From: Fusobacteriaceae bacterium | Lineage (GTDB): Bacteria; Fusobacteriota; Fusobacteriia; Fusobacteriales; Fusobacteriaceae | Reading direction: 5' to 3' | DNA length: 38,538 nt | Assembly (NCBI GenBank): GCA_031272945.1 | Contig: JAISST010000007.1 | Coordinates: forward strand, 1 to 38,538 | In this document: one piece after another, positions 23,317 to 31,923 of the stretch | Layout: every line of letters starts with the position of its first letter | How positions within the stretch are numbered: the first letter of the stretch is position 1 | Program-made: the position numbers and the translations under genes | The notes under the pieces: generated by a model | What the model was told of the DNA's origin: nothing | Database searches by the model: none | Seen by the model: the letters and a program-made list of their open reading frames with translations, nothing else

Positions 23317-25224
23317 TCACGCCTTGATAAAACTGTCTTTGGACTCGCCGCATTCAGGGCAGATCCAATCTTCGGCCAGCTTTTCAAACGTGGTTCCGGC
23401 GGCCACATCCGCTTCGGGATCCCCGAATTCCGGATTGTATTCATAGCCGCAACCGCCGCAGACATAGACATCGTATCTGGATTTTTCCTTTTTGATCGTC
23501 GGTCTCTTCATCTTCTTGGCAGGCGGCGCGTCAATCTTGGGCGCGCCCGTATCGAGGGCGGCTGTCAGCAGAGGCAGGATTTCCTCTACGGTCCCGATGA
23601 TCCCGTAGTCTGCGTTTTTAAAGATCGGCGCATTTTTGCTTTTGTTGATGGCCACAATGGTCGTGGCGTTCTTGATCCCCTTCAAATGCTGACCCGCGCC
23701 GGAAATACCGCAGGCGATATAGAGATTGCCGTTGAATTTCTGGCCCGACATGCCCACATAGCGATTCAAGGGGACATATTTCAGCGTTTCGGCCACGGGT
23801 CTCGAAGAGCCCAGAGCCGCTCCGGCCTGCAATGCAAGCGCTTCCACCAATTTCATATTTTCCTTGGGGCCGATGCCCTTTCCGGCGCTGACCACGCGAT
23901 CCGCCTGGGAAATGGGCGTATTGATGTCGATCCCCACCGTAAAATCGTATCCGTCTTTCTTCAGGGCGGCCACGAGGGCGTTCACTTTCTCCTGCGCGGA
24001 GCCGTCCGTAAAGATCTGCTTCTTCCGGACTCCCGTAATGGGTCCCTTGGCTTTGGCGGGGGGCGCCGCCGCTCCGGTCTTGATCTTTCCCACCAGGGAG
24101 GCGCCGATTACAACGCGCTGGATTTCGTTTGTCCCCTCATAAATGGTGGTGATTTTGGCGTCCCGGTAAGCCCGCTCCACCAGCATGCCTTTCATAAATC
24201 CGTTGCCGCCGTGAATCTGCAGGGCGTCATTGGTCACTTCCAGCGCGATATCGGAGGCGTACATCTTGGCCATGGCCGCTTCCATGGCGTAGGGAGCGTG
24301 GGCTTCCTTGAGCTCCGCGGCGCTGTAAATGAGGTATCTGGCAGCCCGCAGCTTTGTGGCCATATCGGCGAGTTTGAAAGATACGGCCTGCTGTCCCGCA
24401 ATGGGATAGCCGAATTGATTCCTTTCCTTTGCGTATTCCAGGGCTTCCTCATAGGCGCCCTGGGCGATTCCCAGCGCCTGCGCGGCGATTCCGATCCGGC
24501 CTCCGTCCAAGGTCGCCATGGCGATCTTGAATCCTTCCCCTTCCTTTCCGAGGAGATTTTCCTTCGGGACTTTCACGTCCTCAAAGACGAGTTCCGTCGT
24601 TGCCGAAGAACGGATTCCCATTTTGTTGTAATGTTCCCCGAACGTAAATCCTTCCCAGCCTTTTTCCACAATAAAGGCGCTGATGCCTCTCGTTCCGATT
24701 CCGGGCGTCGTCACCGCGAAGACCACGTAGGTATCTGCGGGACCGCCGTTTGTAATGAAGATCTTGCCGCCGTTGAGGAGGTAATAATCCCCTTCGAGGA
24801 CTGCGGTCGTTTCCGTGCCGCCGGCGTCGGATCCGGCATTGGGTTCCGTCAGGCCGAAAGCCCCTAATTTTTCACCTTTTGCAAGAGGTACGAGGTATTT
24901 TTTCTTCTGCTCCTCAGTCCCGAAAGCGAAGATCGGCCAGGATCCCAGCGATACATGGGCCGACAGGATGACGCCCGTGCCGCCGTCCACCCGGGACAGC
25001 TCTTCTACGGCGATGGCGTAAGACAGTACGTCTTCCCCCAGTCCGCCGTATTCTTTCGGAAAGGGCGTTCCGAGGACCCCCATCTCGCCCAGCTTTTTCA
25101 CCGCTTCTTCGGGGAATTCGTTTTCCTGATCCCAGGTAAAAGCGTTGGGTTTTACTTCCGTTTCAGCAAATTCCCGAATCTTTTTTCTGAATTCTTCATG
25201 TTTCTCGGTTGTTTGAAACAACAT
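23317..25224 (-). CDS. Three-domain fusion: acyl-CoA dehydrogenase - EtfA C-terminal (FAD) domain - rubredoxin
   Basis: ACAD: GAFGLTEPNAGSDAGGTETTA, QIHGGNGFMKGMLVERAYRDAKITTIYEGTNEIQR; EtfA-like: VSAGKGIGPKENMKLVEALALQAGAALGSSRPVAETL..QKFNGNLYIACGISGAGQHLKGIKNATTIVAINKSKNAPIFKNADYGIIG; rubredoxin: YVCGGCGYEYNPEFGDPEADVAAGTTFEKLAEDWICPECGESKDSF. GGAGGT is 7 nt from ATG 25224. Confidence 0.93.
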   Translation of the reverse strand: MLFQTTEKHEEFRKKIREFAETEVKPNAFTWDQENEFPEEAVKKLGEMGVLGTPFPKEYGGLGEDVLSYAIAVEELSRVDGGTGVILSAHVSLGSWPIFAFGTEEQKKKYLVPLAKGEKLGAFGLTEPNAGSDAGGTETTAVLEGDYYLLNGGKIFITNGGPADTYVVFAVTTPGIGTRGISAFIVEKGWEGFTFGEHYNKMGIRSSATTELVFEDVKVPKENLLGKEGEGFKIAMATLDGGRIGIAAQALGIAQGAYEEALEYAKERNQFGYPIAGQQAVSFKLADMATKLRAARYLIYSAAELKEAHAPYAMEAAMAKMYASDIALEVTNDALQIHGGNGFMKGMLVERAYRDAKITTIYEGTNEIQRVVIGASLVGKIKTGAAAPPAKAKGPITGVRKKQIFTDGSAQEKVNALVAALKKDGYDFTVGIDINTPISQADRVVSAGKGIGPKENMKLVEALALQAGAALGSSRPVAETLKYVPLNRYVGMSGQKFNGNLYIACGISGAGQHLKGIKNATTIVAINKSKNAPIFKNADYGIIGTVEEILPLLTAALDTGAPKIDAPPAKKMKRPTIKKEKSRYDVYVCGGCGYEYNPEFGDPEADVAAGTTFEKLAEDWICPECGESKDSFIKA

Positions 25225-25300
25225 AGACATTACCTCCTTTTGAATTGATCCTGTAAAATTATCCGTCAAACGAGTTGTATTTGAATCATTCTGTGTATTT

Positions 25301-25306
25301 ATCATA
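25301..25306 (-). promoter_or_regulatory. Putative -10 element (TATGAT) of the ACAD-EtfA-Rd gene
   Basis: Minus-strand TATGAT in AT-rich region, no good -35, consistent with activator dependence. Confidence 0.4.
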
Positions 25307-25328
25307 ACATTATTTTGAAAAATTTTAT

Positions 25329-25342
25329 GTTGCATCCGCAAC
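25329..25342. promoter_or_regulatory. Candidate Crp/Fnr-family operator palindrome GTTGC-ATCC-GCAAC
   Basis: Perfect 5-4-5 inverted repeat in the divergent intergenic region; overlaps the -35 of the Crp/Fnr gene promoter. Confidence 0.5.
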
Positions 25343-25358
25343 TTTTTTGTAGTAAAAT
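25330..25358 (+). promoter_or_regulatory. Putative promoter of the Crp/Fnr regulator gene
   Basis: TTGCAT - 17 nt - TAAAAT. Confidence 0.5.
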
Positions 25359-25398
25359 TTACAGAGAACACATTTTTTTTCGGGGAAAAGGAGGAAAA

Positions 25399-26040
25399 AT
25401 GCAAAATTTCACAATTGATAACGGGATCCCCCGGGAGGAAATCCGGGAAATGATTTCCTGCTTCCAACCGGAGCTGAGGACATATTCAGCCAATGAGACC
25501 ATTTTATGCTATTCGGACAAAAAAAACAAAATCGGGGTGTTGCTCACGGGAAGCGCGCATCTCTACGCCATCAACAGCGAAGGCGAGTACCAGGAACTGG
25601 AGACCTACAGAGTCCGGGACGTCTTCGGGGAGATCTTTCATGTCCCCATCGAAAACTTCGAATACATCATTGAGTCCACCAGCTACGCCAAGGTCATGTT
25701 CATCGACTACAAACACATCATCACCCCCTGCAGTAAAATATGCGAACACCATACCCAGCTCATCAACAATCTTTTTCATATGACCGCCAAAAAAGTGCAG
25801 CTTTTATCCCTGCATCTCAGCATCATCAGCCAGAACACGATCCGGAAAAAACTGCTGGCCTATTTGAAGTACATCCGGCATACGGCCGGATCCAATCCCT
25901 TCACGATCCCTCTCTCCCTCATCTCCCTGTCGGAATACCTCTGCGTGGACCGCAGCGCAATGATGCGCGAGATCAGCCACTTGAAGAGGGACGGCGTCCT
26001 CAGCTCCCAAGGAACCAGATTTTATTTGAGCGAAGCCTGA
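25399..26040 (+). CDS. Crp/Fnr family transcriptional regulator
   Basis: cNMP-binding-like N-terminal domain and C-terminal HTH (IPLSLISLSEYLCVDRSAMMREISHLKRDGVL). ATG 25399 follows AAAGGAGG. Confidence 0.87.
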   Translation: MQNFTIDNGIPREEIREMISCFQPELRTYSANETILCYSDKKNKIGVLLTGSAHLYAINSEGEYQELETYRVRDVFGEIFHVPIENFEYIIESTSYAKVMFIDYKHIITPCSKICEHHTQLINNLFHMTAKKVQLLSLHLSIISQNTIRKKLLAYLKYIRHTAGSNPFTIPLSLISLSEYLCVDRSAMMREISHLKRDGVLSSQGTRFYLSEA

Positions 26041-28282: not shown

Positions 28283-28636
28283 ATGAAGGTCACAGATTTA
28301 CGCGGTAACGCGCCGGCGGGGCAACTGTCCGCGCCGTGGGAAAGAAAGACCCAGAAAAAACAAACGACCGTCTTCTCATTTTGCACGATGCTCGTGATCG
28401 TGACGGTTTTTTTCGGAACGGAGTTTTTCATCTTTCAAAACATCCGAAAAATGGAAGAAGAACGGACGCTGAAGAAAGAGAATTTTACCGAACTTGCCGA
28501 CGGCGCGTTTCGAAGACGGGACGCCCAATTCTTCCGCAATGAGGAATATGTAAAGCAGCACAGAACCAAAGGCGTTGTCGCGCCTGTCATCATATCCCGC
28601 AACCGGGAAAAGGAAGGCGGCGATTTGATTGAGTAA
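28283..28636 (+). CDS. Small single-TM protein with short coiled coil, DivIC/FtsB-like topology
   Basis: One TM segment (FSFCTMLVIVTVFFGTEFFIF) followed by charged coil; located between folC and the HprK-like gene. Family assignment is weak. Confidence 0.45.
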   Translation: MKVTDLRGNAPAGQLSAPWERKTQKKQTTVFSFCTMLVIVTVFFGTEFFIFQNIRKMEEERTLKKENFTELADGAFRRRDAQFFRNEEYVKQHRTKGVVAPVIISRNREKEGGDLIE

Positions 28637-30587
28637 TTTCCTGTCCCATGAAAAAATGAACCCTACGATCCAGGATCTCATTGACAAACTGGAACTGGAG
28701 GTTTTGAATCCCGGCGATCCCGCGAGGCAGATAGAACGTCCCAACATCTACCAGATCGGCTATGAATTGACGGGTTTTTTTAGTTACAGCGGAGAAGATC
28801 TGGAGCAGAGCGTTCAGGTCTGCGGCAGAAAAGAACTGATGTATATGCGCACGCTGTCGGAGCAGGTGCTGATCGCCCTTCTGACGAAGTATTTCTCTTA
28901 TCGCTTCCCGGCCCTGGTGATCACCTGGGACGACGAAGCCATGGAGCGCATCCTCGTTCGCTTGGCGACAATCCACAACGTAACGCTTCTCAAAAGCAAA
29001 AAGGACACGCCGGTTACAATCCGGGAACTGAAATTCTTTTTGCAGAAAAATTTTGTGGAGGAAATGATCCTGCCGGGGTACACATTCCTTGAAATCTACG
29101 GAATCGGCGTTTTGATCACAGGCTATGAGGACGCCAAGATCGGCGTCGCCATCGAACTTCTGGACCGGGGTCACCGGATCATCACCGACGACAATGTCCT
29201 GATCCGGCGTCTGGCGGAAAACTATCTCGAGGGCTGCAATCGCCTCGACAAAAGCGTCGAAGACAGCCACTTCTTTCTGCAAAACCAAAAAGACGGCACG
29301 AAAATCGATGTGACGACCCAATACGGCATCAAATCCACCCGGGCCAAGAAAAAAATTGATCTGCTGATTGTCTTGGAGGAATGGAATGAGAAAGAGTTTT
29401 ACGATCGACTGGGTCTCGATGAAATCTACGCGGAATTTTTGGGGGAAAGGGTTCCCAAAATCGTATTGCCGGTCCGTAAAGGACGAAACCTTGCCGTGAT
29501 TCTCGAAGCGGCGGCAATGAATTCGCGGCTCAAAATAATCGGGGAGAATTCCGCCGAGATCTTCGTAGCCGAAACGAAAAAAATCATCGAGGAAAATAAA
29601 AAAATGCAAGGGGATAAAGATATGGACAAAAAGCGAATCGGCGTGCTGGCATTGAAAAATCAGTTCGGCCTCAAGGTCATCACCGGTGAAAAAGCGCTGG
29701 AGACAACCCAGGTGACGACGGTTTCCATCCACCGTCCGGCCCTGGCCCTCTCGGGTTTTTTCGATATCTATGAGGATCCGGAAAACATTTGCATCCAGAT
29801 CTTTTCCAATGACGAATTTCGCTACCTCAACGGACTTCCCGGAGAAAGACGCAATGAGATTCTGGAAAAATACCTGAGTTACCCCTTTCCCATGCTGGTA
29901 ACCACGGTCGATACGGAAGTTCCCTCCTGGTTTCTGGAGCTCGTCCGGAAAAGGGGCCTGATTTTATGCAAAAGTCCCTATAAAAAGGTTTCCCAGGTGA
30001 TCGCCAATTTCAACGGTTATCTCGAAACAGCCTTCAATCCCACGTTATCCGTTCACGGGGTTTTTCTGGAGCTCTACGGTTTCGGAGTCCTGATCATCGG
30101 AAAAAGTCAGATCGGGAAAAGTGAAACGGCGCTGGAGCTCATTCACCGGGGGCATCGGCTCGTCGCCGACGACTTTGTCAAATTTTCCCGCGACACCGGC
30201 GGCGCAGTCGTCGGAAGAGCGGCGCGGCTGCCTTATTTTATGGAAGTCCGGGGTCTGGGGGTCATTGACATCAAGGCTCTCTACGGTCTGGGCGCCGTCC
30301 GGCTCAACAAGAGGCTGGATTTTGTGATTGAAATGCGCGAACAGAAGACCGAGGACTACCTGACCTCCCTCCATTATGAAAGCGGCGCCTATGAAATTCT
30401 GAACAAGAACATCCCCAAAATTGTGCTGTACATGTCTTCGGGAAGGAACGCGGCGGCCATGGTGGAAATCGCGGTCATGAACCGGATGGCCAGAGCGCTG
30501 GGGCATGATCCCGATAAACTGTACCGGGAAGGGTTGAAAAAACTCACCGACGAAGAAAGAAAACTGATAGAGGAGAATCCCAGATAA
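28629..30587 (+). CDS. Tandem HPr kinase/phosphorylase-like protein (two HprK copies in one ORF)
   Basis: Two successive HprK-like units: FLEIYGIGVLITGYEDAKIGVAIELLDRGHRIITDD...YDRLGL...VPKIVLPVRKGRNLAVILEAAAMN and SVHGVFLELYGFGVLIIGKSQIGKSETALELIHRGHRLVADD...FMEVRGLGVIDIKALYGLGAVR. TTG start with AAGGAAGG upstream; ATG 28656 alternative. Confidence 0.88.
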   Translation: MSNFLSHEKMNPTIQDLIDKLELEVLNPGDPARQIERPNIYQIGYELTGFFSYSGEDLEQSVQVCGRKELMYMRTLSEQVLIALLTKYFSYRFPALVITWDDEAMERILVRLATIHNVTLLKSKKDTPVTIRELKFFLQKNFVEEMILPGYTFLEIYGIGVLITGYEDAKIGVAIELLDRGHRIITDDNVLIRRLAENYLEGCNRLDKSVEDSHFFLQNQKDGTKIDVTTQYGIKSTRAKKKIDLLIVLEEWNEKEFYDRLGLDEIYAEFLGERVPKIVLPVRKGRNLAVILEAAAMNSRLKIIGENSAEIFVAETKKIIEENKKMQGDKDMDKKRIGVLALKNQFGLKVITGEKALETTQVTTVSIHRPALALSGFFDIYEDPENICIQIFSNDEFRYLNGLPGERRNEILEKYLSYPFPMLVTTVDTEVPSWFLELVRKRGLILCKSPYKKVSQVIANFNGYLETAFNPTLSVHGVFLELYGFGVLIIGKSQIGKSETALELIHRGHRLVADDFVKFSRDTGGAVVGRAARLPYFMEVRGLGVIDIKALYGLGAVRLNKRLDFVIEMREQKTEDYLTSLHYESGAYEILNKNIPKIVLYMSSGRNAAAMVEIAVMNRMARALGHDPDKLYREGLKKLTDEERKLIEENPR

Positions 30588-30589
30588 CC

Positions 30590-31576
30590 ATGACGGCAAG
30601 CTTGAAAGAAATAACGGAAAAATTGAAGCAAGGCGGGCGCATGATCCTGACGACCCATGTCAATCCCGATGGCGACGCCATCGGCGCAACCCTCGGCCTC
30701 TATCACGGGCTAAAAAAACTCGTCCCCGACGGAAGAATCCAAAGCCTGCGGATCGTGCTCCAGGACAAGGCCCCGGATACCACGAGATTTCTGGACGGTT
30801 TTGACCGCATTGAGCAATATCGGGAGGAAGAGCGCTATCCCTGTGATATCCTGGTCTGCCTGGACAGCGCCGATCTCAAACGCTGCGGGAAAACGGCGGC
30901 CCTTGCCGAAAACACTTATGTCGTCAACATCGACCACCATATCACGAACCCGGGTTATGGCCGCTTGAACTATGTGAGAGATATCTCCTCCACAAGCGAA
31001 ATCATCTATGACTTGCTGAAAGACGCCGGTATCTCCGTGGATGTCGCCGTCGGCGAATGTCTATACACCGGTCTTGTGAATGATACGGGCAATTTTTCTC
31101 ACGATAATGTGAGCCCAGCCACCTTCGCCATGGCTGCGGACCTGATCGGAGCAGGCGTCGACAACGCCAGGGTCATCCGGGAATTTTTGCAGAAAAAATC
31201 CTGGGGCGCCGTCAAGCTCATCGGCGAAGCCATGTTTCGCATGGCGTATTTTCCGGAGGAGCGTCTTGCGTTTTTTTCGCTGTCCTATGAAGAAATGCGG
31301 CGCTTGAACGGGAGAAAAGAAGATACCGAGAGTATCGTCGAGCGTCTGATCGAATATGAGGAAGCGTTGACGGCTCTTTTCCTGCGGGAAGAGGAAGACG
31401 GAAGCATAAAAGGAAGCTTGCGTACGAAAAGCGTCGCCTGCGATCTTTCCAAAATCGCCGTTTCTTTCGGCGGCGGGGGTCATAAAAAGGCGGCCGGATT
31501 TTCTTCCAAGCTCAAAGCCGGAGAGATTCTGAAAAAAATCCGGAAAATTTTACGGGAAATTGAAAATTATAGTTGA
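30590..31576 (+). CDS. nrnA: DHH/DHHA1 phosphoesterase, NrnA-like (nanoRNase/pAp phosphatase)
   Basis: TTHVNPDGDAIGATLGL, NIDHHITNPGYGRLNYV, VNDTGNFSHDN, SFGGGGHKKAAGF. Confidence 0.88.
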   Translation: MTASLKEITEKLKQGGRMILTTHVNPDGDAIGATLGLYHGLKKLVPDGRIQSLRIVLQDKAPDTTRFLDGFDRIEQYREEERYPCDILVCLDSADLKRCGKTAALAENTYVVNIDHHITNPGYGRLNYVRDISSTSEIIYDLLKDAGISVDVAVGECLYTGLVNDTGNFSHDNVSPATFAMAADLIGAGVDNARVIREFLQKKSWGAVKLIGEAMFRMAYFPEERLAFFSLSYEEMRRLNGRKEDTESIVERLIEYEEALTALFLREEEDGSIKGSLRTKSVACDLSKIAVSFGGGGHKKAAGFSSKLKAGEILKKIRKILREIENYS

Positions 31577-31650: not shown

Positions 31651-31923
31651 ATGGAGATAGTTTTTATCAAACCCAACGGAGTGGAAGATTGCGGAAAGTG
31701 TATTTCAGTCATCAAGGACAACAAAATCCTGCACATCAATTTGTCTGACGTGGGAAACGACAATGCCCGACGGATCATTCATTACCTGAGCGGCGCCATG
31801 TTTATGCAGGACGGGATCCTCTATTCCCCGGCGGACAAAATCTTCTGCACAATTCCCAAAGGCGTCAAATATTCTTCTCTGTCGCCGGAAGACGACGAAC
31901 CGGAAATCACGATAGACCGATAA
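31651..31923 (+). CDS. sepF: SepF-like cell division protein, minimal (90 aa)
   Basis: KILHINLSDVGNDNARRIIHYLSGAMFMQDGILYSPADKIFCTIPKGVKY matches the SepF core pattern; RBS GGAGGT. Confidence 0.78.
   Translation: MEIVFIKPNGVEDCGKCISVIKDNKILHINLSDVGNDNARRIIHYLSGAMFMQDGILYSPADKIFCTIPKGVKYSSLSPEDDEPEITIDR

Follow-up and report, generated by a model that had tools for sequence, protein, structure and literature searches.

In many bacteria, the HPr kinase/phosphorylase HprK acts as the sensor for carbon catabolite repression. Here, we have analysed a tandem HprK gene on a 38,538-nucleotide stretch (the window) of contig JAISST010000007.1 from a Fusobacteriaceae bacterium (assembly GCA_031272945.1). 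The two HprK units of the encoded protein have lost complementary parts of the enzyme: The C-terminal unit (C-half) has kept the catalytic core, and the N-terminal unit (N-half) has kept those elements that a neighbouring subunit supplies in the known HprK structures. Judging from this pattern of conservation, it is highly probable that each tandem polypeptide forms one composite active site, with the core provided by the C-half and the loops by the N-half.

Reciprocal motif loss in the two halves

The tandem gene is a single open reading frame (ORF) of 652 codons without internal stops (positions 28629-30587, forward strand, as for all elements of the gene below). Its TTG start recurs in the two nearest relatives, whose proteins likewise open with LSN. 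The preliminary description of this DNA had proposed an uninterrupted frame with two full HprK-like units, and this was borne out when the halves were profiled separately: Both HprK domains, Hpr_kinase_N (PF02603) and Hpr_kinase_C (PF07475), score above the gathering threshold in the N-half (79.5 and 127.9 bits) as well as in the C-half (89.3 and 171.9 bits). With the HprK equivalog profile TIGR00679 of NCBIfam (cut-off 240 bits), the full-length protein reaches 480 bits and the C-half 271.6 bits, and the N-half alone stays below the cut-off (213.7 bits). In a phmmer comparison with solved structures, residues 341-566 of the C-half and residues 240-314 of the N-half align to successive parts of one Staphylococcus xylosus HprK chain; thus, the best single HprK draws on both halves. 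A frameshift or a chance ORF was ruled out, as the frame is stop-free and conserved in 18 genera.

The halves differ in which motifs they retain. The N-half (28629-29621) combines the HprK N-terminal domain and a kinase-fold domain with a dead catalytic core: The position of the catalytic His140 (L. casei HprK numbering is used throughout) is replaced (LPGY, 29070-29081), the P-loop is broken and one residue short (GYEDAKIG, 29121-29144), and the signature EIRGLG is absent (LQNQKDG, 29277-29297). The same half carries a near-canonical flexible loop (W..FYDRLG, preceded by Glu in EFYDRLG, 29382-29414) with R260 as the equivalent of Arg245, the K3 or phosphorylase loop PVRKGRNLA (29469-29495, LPVRKGRNLA with the preceding Leu), and the C-terminal helix region that contacts HPr in published structures (29517-29603). 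The C-half (29622-30584) has both domains with an intact core, i. e. the His140 equivalent H476 (30054-30056) in SVHGV, the P-loop GKSQIGKS (30099-30122) followed by Glu, the ADD motif with the equivalents of Asp178 and Asp179 (30165-30173, in VADD), and the signature EVRGLG (30243-30260). All these features had been noted before, and so had the replacement of the DRLG loop by LTSLHYES (30360-30383). Only the loss of the PVRxGRNLA loop from the C-half needs refinement: Pro266, the basic residue 268 and Leu273 are gone, but the GRN core survives (YMSSGRNAA, 30429-30455, within LYMSSGRNAAA).

The partition is not a peculiarity of the window. In 64 aligned tandems of the Fusobacteriales, all C-halves have His140, Ser157, Gly160, Lys161, Ser162, Asp178, Asp179, Glu204, Arg206, Gly207, and Gly209. 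Among the N-halves, His140, Gly160, and Ser162 never occur, and Asp179 (9/64), Glu204 (10/64), and Arg206 (3%) are rare. Conversely, Glu235, Arg245, Leu246, Gly247, Pro266, an Arg or Lys at position 268, Phe297, and Ile305 are present in each of the 64 N-halves, and Gly270 and Arg271 are invariant there as well; the C-halves have Arg245 in four and Phe297 in five cases, and never Pro266, the basic residue 268 or Ile305. Instead, they carry Ser268 (60/64) and Ser269 (59/64). At the level of motifs, the Walker A P-loop GxxxxGKS is found in 64 C-halves and in none of the N-halves, and the signature E[IV]RG[ILMV]G together with His140 and Asp179 again marks all C-halves, a combination that the N-half does not have. 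The Arg245 loop and the K3 loop PVxxGRN are present in the N-half and, except for the GRN core, missing from the C-half. The catalytic elements, all of which would be expected on one HprK unit, are thus divided between the halves. The same split is seen in Fusobacterium vincentii and in G098, a genome of another order of the class. This agreement at the diagnostic residues over 64 tandems indicates that the motif partition in the window gene is not due to chance.

A comparison with 12 canonical HprKs gives a quantitative picture. The catalytic domain has 53 conserved positions; both halves keep 17 of them, the C-half alone 22, the N-half alone 10, and neither half four, so that at least one half retains 49 of the 53. 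All 22 C-only positions fall between residues 140 and 210, and nine of the ten N-only positions between 234 and 297 (exact p 3.6e-7, assuming independent positions, which is not strictly the case). A Fisher test for joint loss below expectation over all conserved positions gave p = 0.07; it does not count as evidence here, as the positions kept by both halves dominate it.

The loss of the P-loop, the His and the signature motif from the N-half might suggest a functionless leftover of the duplication that is decaying. Yet both halves are under purifying selection in five species pairs (dS, the synonymous divergence, 0.5-1.7; dN, the nonsynonymous divergence, 0.009-0.16), with dN/dS well below 1 and, for the N-half, at about 0.03-0.13. 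Moreover, the positions of Arg245, Pro266, Gly270, Arg271, Phe297, and Ile305 are invariant in all N-halves, and the tandem occurs in essentially every HprK-positive genome of the phylum. We therefore reject simple decay of the N-half on the basis of dN/dS and invariance, and such a leftover is extremely improbable.

A proposed composite active site and its reduced form

The residues that form the substrate site of HprK come from two subunits: Arg245, Thr294, Leu301, and Ile305 from one, and His140', Ser157', Asp179', Arg180', Ile198', Leu199', and Glu204' from the other (PMC9399212). Moreover, the K3 loop of an adjacent subunit sits beside the P-loop (PMC9399212), and HPr docks where two subunits overlap (PMC9138534). 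As far as family-conserved residues are concerned, these two published sets map onto the N-half and the C-half, respectively; thus, the split follows the subunit interface. This suggests an explanation for the reciprocal loss. Ancestral duplication and fusion of HprK units would have created a pair with two composite sites. If one of these became redundant, the core of the N-half and the loops of the C-half would be set free together, and it is these two parts that have been lost. The remaining site would receive the P-loop, His, Asp, Glu, and the RGLG signature from the C-half, and the Arg245 loop, the phosphorylase loop, and the HPr-contacting C-terminal helix as neighbour-subunit elements from the N-half, and it would act on an HPr paralog with the Ser46 motif NG[KR]SIMGLM. 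The halves may thus complement each other physically, presumably inside a single chain and not across two chains. The tandem enzyme likely retains kinase activity, and it probably has phosphorylase activity as well. A hexamer built from three tandems has about an even chance of being the oligomer; it would require the shared site to be on a two-fold interface.

Two features of the lost second site have remained conserved: a basic residue at position 161 in 59 of the 64 N-halves (residue 170 in the window protein, 29136-29138) and, in about 60 of the 64 C-halves, Ser268-Ser269 followed by GRN (residues 603-607, 30435-30449). These remnants suggest that the lost site may have kept a structural or effector-sensing role.

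A natural deletion form of the tandem is found in the genome G087, which carries an intact ORF for a 269-amino acid protein (mini-HprK) at the usual locus of the tandem (L064:2112-2921), with the usual neighbours, i. e. the MTA/SAH-nucleosidase side on one side and the DHH gene on the other. The first part of mini-HprK matches the N-half profile (49 bits vs 15 bits for the C-half profile), the second part the C-half profile (130 bits vs 41 bits for the N-half profile). With respect to the canonical profile, it covers positions 226-309 and then 136-237, each once and in permuted order. WNKEEHFDRLG, IPIKKGRD, HGV, GKSGVGKSE, ADD, and EVRGLG are each retained once; both N-terminal domains, the P-loop region of the N-half and the phosphorylase elements of the C-half are gone. 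From its sequence, mini-HprK is a naturally permuted catalytic domain made up of the N-half loops and the C-half core. It has kept only the complementary parts, just as predicted if the active site is split between the halves, and not as predicted if the N-half is a pseudo-kinase. This evidence comes from a single draft genome with 100 contigs and a completeness of 88%. In addition, the sister lineages of G087 have lost the HprK gene altogether, and mini-HprK might thus be a pseudogene or an assembly chimera instead of a working reduced enzyme. The intact frame of 269 codons between the expected neighbours, the presence of each core and loop motif exactly once, and the retention of HPr-Ser46, unlike in the HprK-less relatives, make such an artefact unlikely. 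We lean slightly towards a history in which a symmetric oligomer was converted by reciprocal loss to one site per chain, and in which the deletion of the dead half-sites in one Leptotrichiaceae-type lineage then gave rise to a 269-residue circularly permuted HPr kinase/phosphorylase that is perhaps independent of homo-oligomerization.

The distribution of the presumed substrate fits the retention of HprK. All 69 HprK-positive genomes of the order, including G087, encode an HPr with the motif NG[KR]SIMGLM (NGRSIMGLM in the window genome), and this HPr was found in none of the 28 HprK-negative genomes of the order. Twenty of the latter, which are Leptotrichiaceae-type genomes (HPr loci L150, L170-L178, and L193-L201), have Asn46 in the matching IMG-type paralog; in the others, the paralog is absent, only other HPr types are present, or, in one incomplete genome, no HPr match was obtained. 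The linked loss of HprK and HPr-Ser46 in Leptotrichiaceae-type genomes indicates that some Fusobacteria can do without this branch of carbon control.

Several points weigh against a single composite site or limit the case for it. The short HprK of alpha-proteobacteria is a kinase even though it lacks the conserved C-terminal region (PMC2937029), and the C-half might thus phosphorylate HPr unaided. Neither half conserves Thr294 or Leu301, two entries of the published contact list, as such. An AlphaFold2 model of the tandem, calculated from two sequences only (the window protein and L033), had a predicted local distance difference test score (pLDDT) of 33 and a predicted template modelling score (pTM) of 0.25, too low for the model to be used. 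If the shared site were on a three-fold interface, three N-halves and three C-halves could not alternate around a ring, and another assembly would be needed. Finally, the correlation between HprK and HPr-Ser46 is complete, yet no more than one or two loss events underlie it: The starred branches of the DHH tree force two changes in HprK presence, and the RpoB tree, which does not include G087, only one. G087 was placed by its neighbouring DHH gene, as PF00562 (RpoB) was not found in this incomplete genome.

The activity of the alpha-proteobacterial enzyme would also suit the second proposal of the preliminary description, the N-half as a regulatory pseudo-kinase. In this reading, the C-half works as an HPr kinase on its own, and the N-half senses an effector or exerts allosteric control without contributing residues to the active site. 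The basic residue 161 in most of the P-loop-dead N-halves may point to a binding site for phosphate or an effector, and in plant PDRP, an active domain shares the chain with a second one for which an allosteric role is proposed (PMC9138534). However, the absolutely conserved residues of the N-half are those that contact the active site of the neighbour in HprK structures, the C-half has the same elements replaced in 60 to 64 of the 64 sequences, and mini-HprK has dropped, along with both N-terminal domains, nearly everything of the N-half except for these elements. We thus regard a purely regulatory N-half as improbable. The division of labour between the halves, which had been the first proposal, is strongly favoured by the invariant, class-wide partition along the published inter-subunit site and by the natural deletion form.

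Distribution and genomic context

Of the 97 genomes of the order, 69 have PF07475. These comprise the window's family with every member, two further families, and one genus (genome sizes 1.9-4.5 Mb) of a fourth, Leptotrichiaceae-like family; the domain was not found in the remaining genomes of the latter. Apart from G087 and from fragments that are broken or located at contig ends, HprK in this order is always a tandem. As the preliminary description had suggested, we searched for this architecture across genomes and found it class-wide and nearly universal among HprK-positive genomes, including G098 and F. vincentii. The comparison HprKs from Bacillota, Chlamydiota, Xanthomonas, and Mycoplasmopsis are of the ordinary single-unit kind; one single-unit HprK from viral contigs served as a reference row only. 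In a phylogenetic tree, the N-halves form one clade (support 100/100) and the C-halves another (100/99). Each half being monophyletic, a recent duplication can be ruled out, and a single duplication predates the whole order. The presence of the split in G098 pushes its origin back to the class.

HprK and HPr-Ser46 are retained in the order despite the fact that none of the 97 genomes has a CcpA equivalog (TIGR01481) above the cut-off; two of 14 control genomes do. Some genera have many LacI-type regulators.

In the window, the tandem gene is located between a folylpolyglutamate-synthase-like Mur ligase gene and a gene for a DHH/DHHA1 phosphoesterase (30590-31576, forward strand), the conserved neighbour that also lies beside mini-HprK (L064). 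Further downstream follow SepF, FtsW/RodA, an AsnRS-like synthetase, and an amidase; SepF (31651-31923, forward strand) and the adjoining FtsW/RodA form a division-gene cluster. Directly upstream, a 117-codon ORF without a Pfam match (28283-28636, forward strand) overlaps the HprK start. At the matching place upstream of mini-HprK, G087 encodes a 199-amino acid protein (L064:1495-2094) that appears SPOR-like by eye. Elsewhere in the window, a 716-codon ORF on the reverse strand (23317-25467) apparently combines, again by eye, an acyl-CoA dehydrogenase, an electron-transfer-flavoprotein alpha-type part, and a C-terminal rubredoxin-like part (CGGCGYEYNPEFGDPE...CPECG).

Comparison with known systems

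Two HprK domains in tandem have been recorded for F. nucleatum (Comas et al. 2008, PMC2405797), and the window gene is its ortholog as judged by family and order-wide presence. Thus, the architecture itself is not new. The parts of that report available to us record the domains and mention neither a motif partition nor a mechanism or a reduced form. For the reciprocal loss, its fixation throughout the class, the mini form, and the Ser46-to-Asn change in HPr, no description was found in the open-licence literature searched, which is weak evidence that they are new.

Nucleotide-binding pairs of asymmetric ABC transporters have one consensus and one degenerate site. As proposed for the tandem HprK, both partners have lost their share of one of two composite sites, and the other site has been preserved; the families are unrelated, and the likeness is an analogy only. 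Like the C-part of mini-HprK, the short HprK of alpha-proteobacteria such as Brucella has neither the N-terminal domain nor the phosphorylase region at the C-terminus (PMC2937029). However, this enzyme is a single unit without a second copy to supply the missing region, and it is a kinase but a poor phosphorylase (PMC2937029). The plant PPDK regulatory protein PDRP is also a bifunctional kinase/phosphorylase with two like-folded P-loop domains per chain, of which the C-terminal one is active; it belongs to another protein family, and an allosteric role, not that of an active-site donor, is proposed for its N-domain (PMC9138534).

With canonical HprK/P (L. casei 1JB1/1KKL, S. xylosus 1KO7, M. 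pneumoniae 1KNX), the tandem shares the PF02603 and PF07475 domains, the catalytic residues, the neighbour-derived Arg245, K3, and C-terminal helix elements, and presumably the substrate HPr-Ser46. The canonical enzyme is a homohexamer with both parts on every subunit, whereas the tandem has them on different halves. How one site accommodates two opposing activities and how the subunits cooperate has long been asked of HprK. The tandem can be regarded as evolution's own cross-complementation experiment: Core and neighbour-supplied loops reside on separately mutable halves, and their roles in the kinase and phosphorylase reactions can thus be tested without the averaging over subunits.
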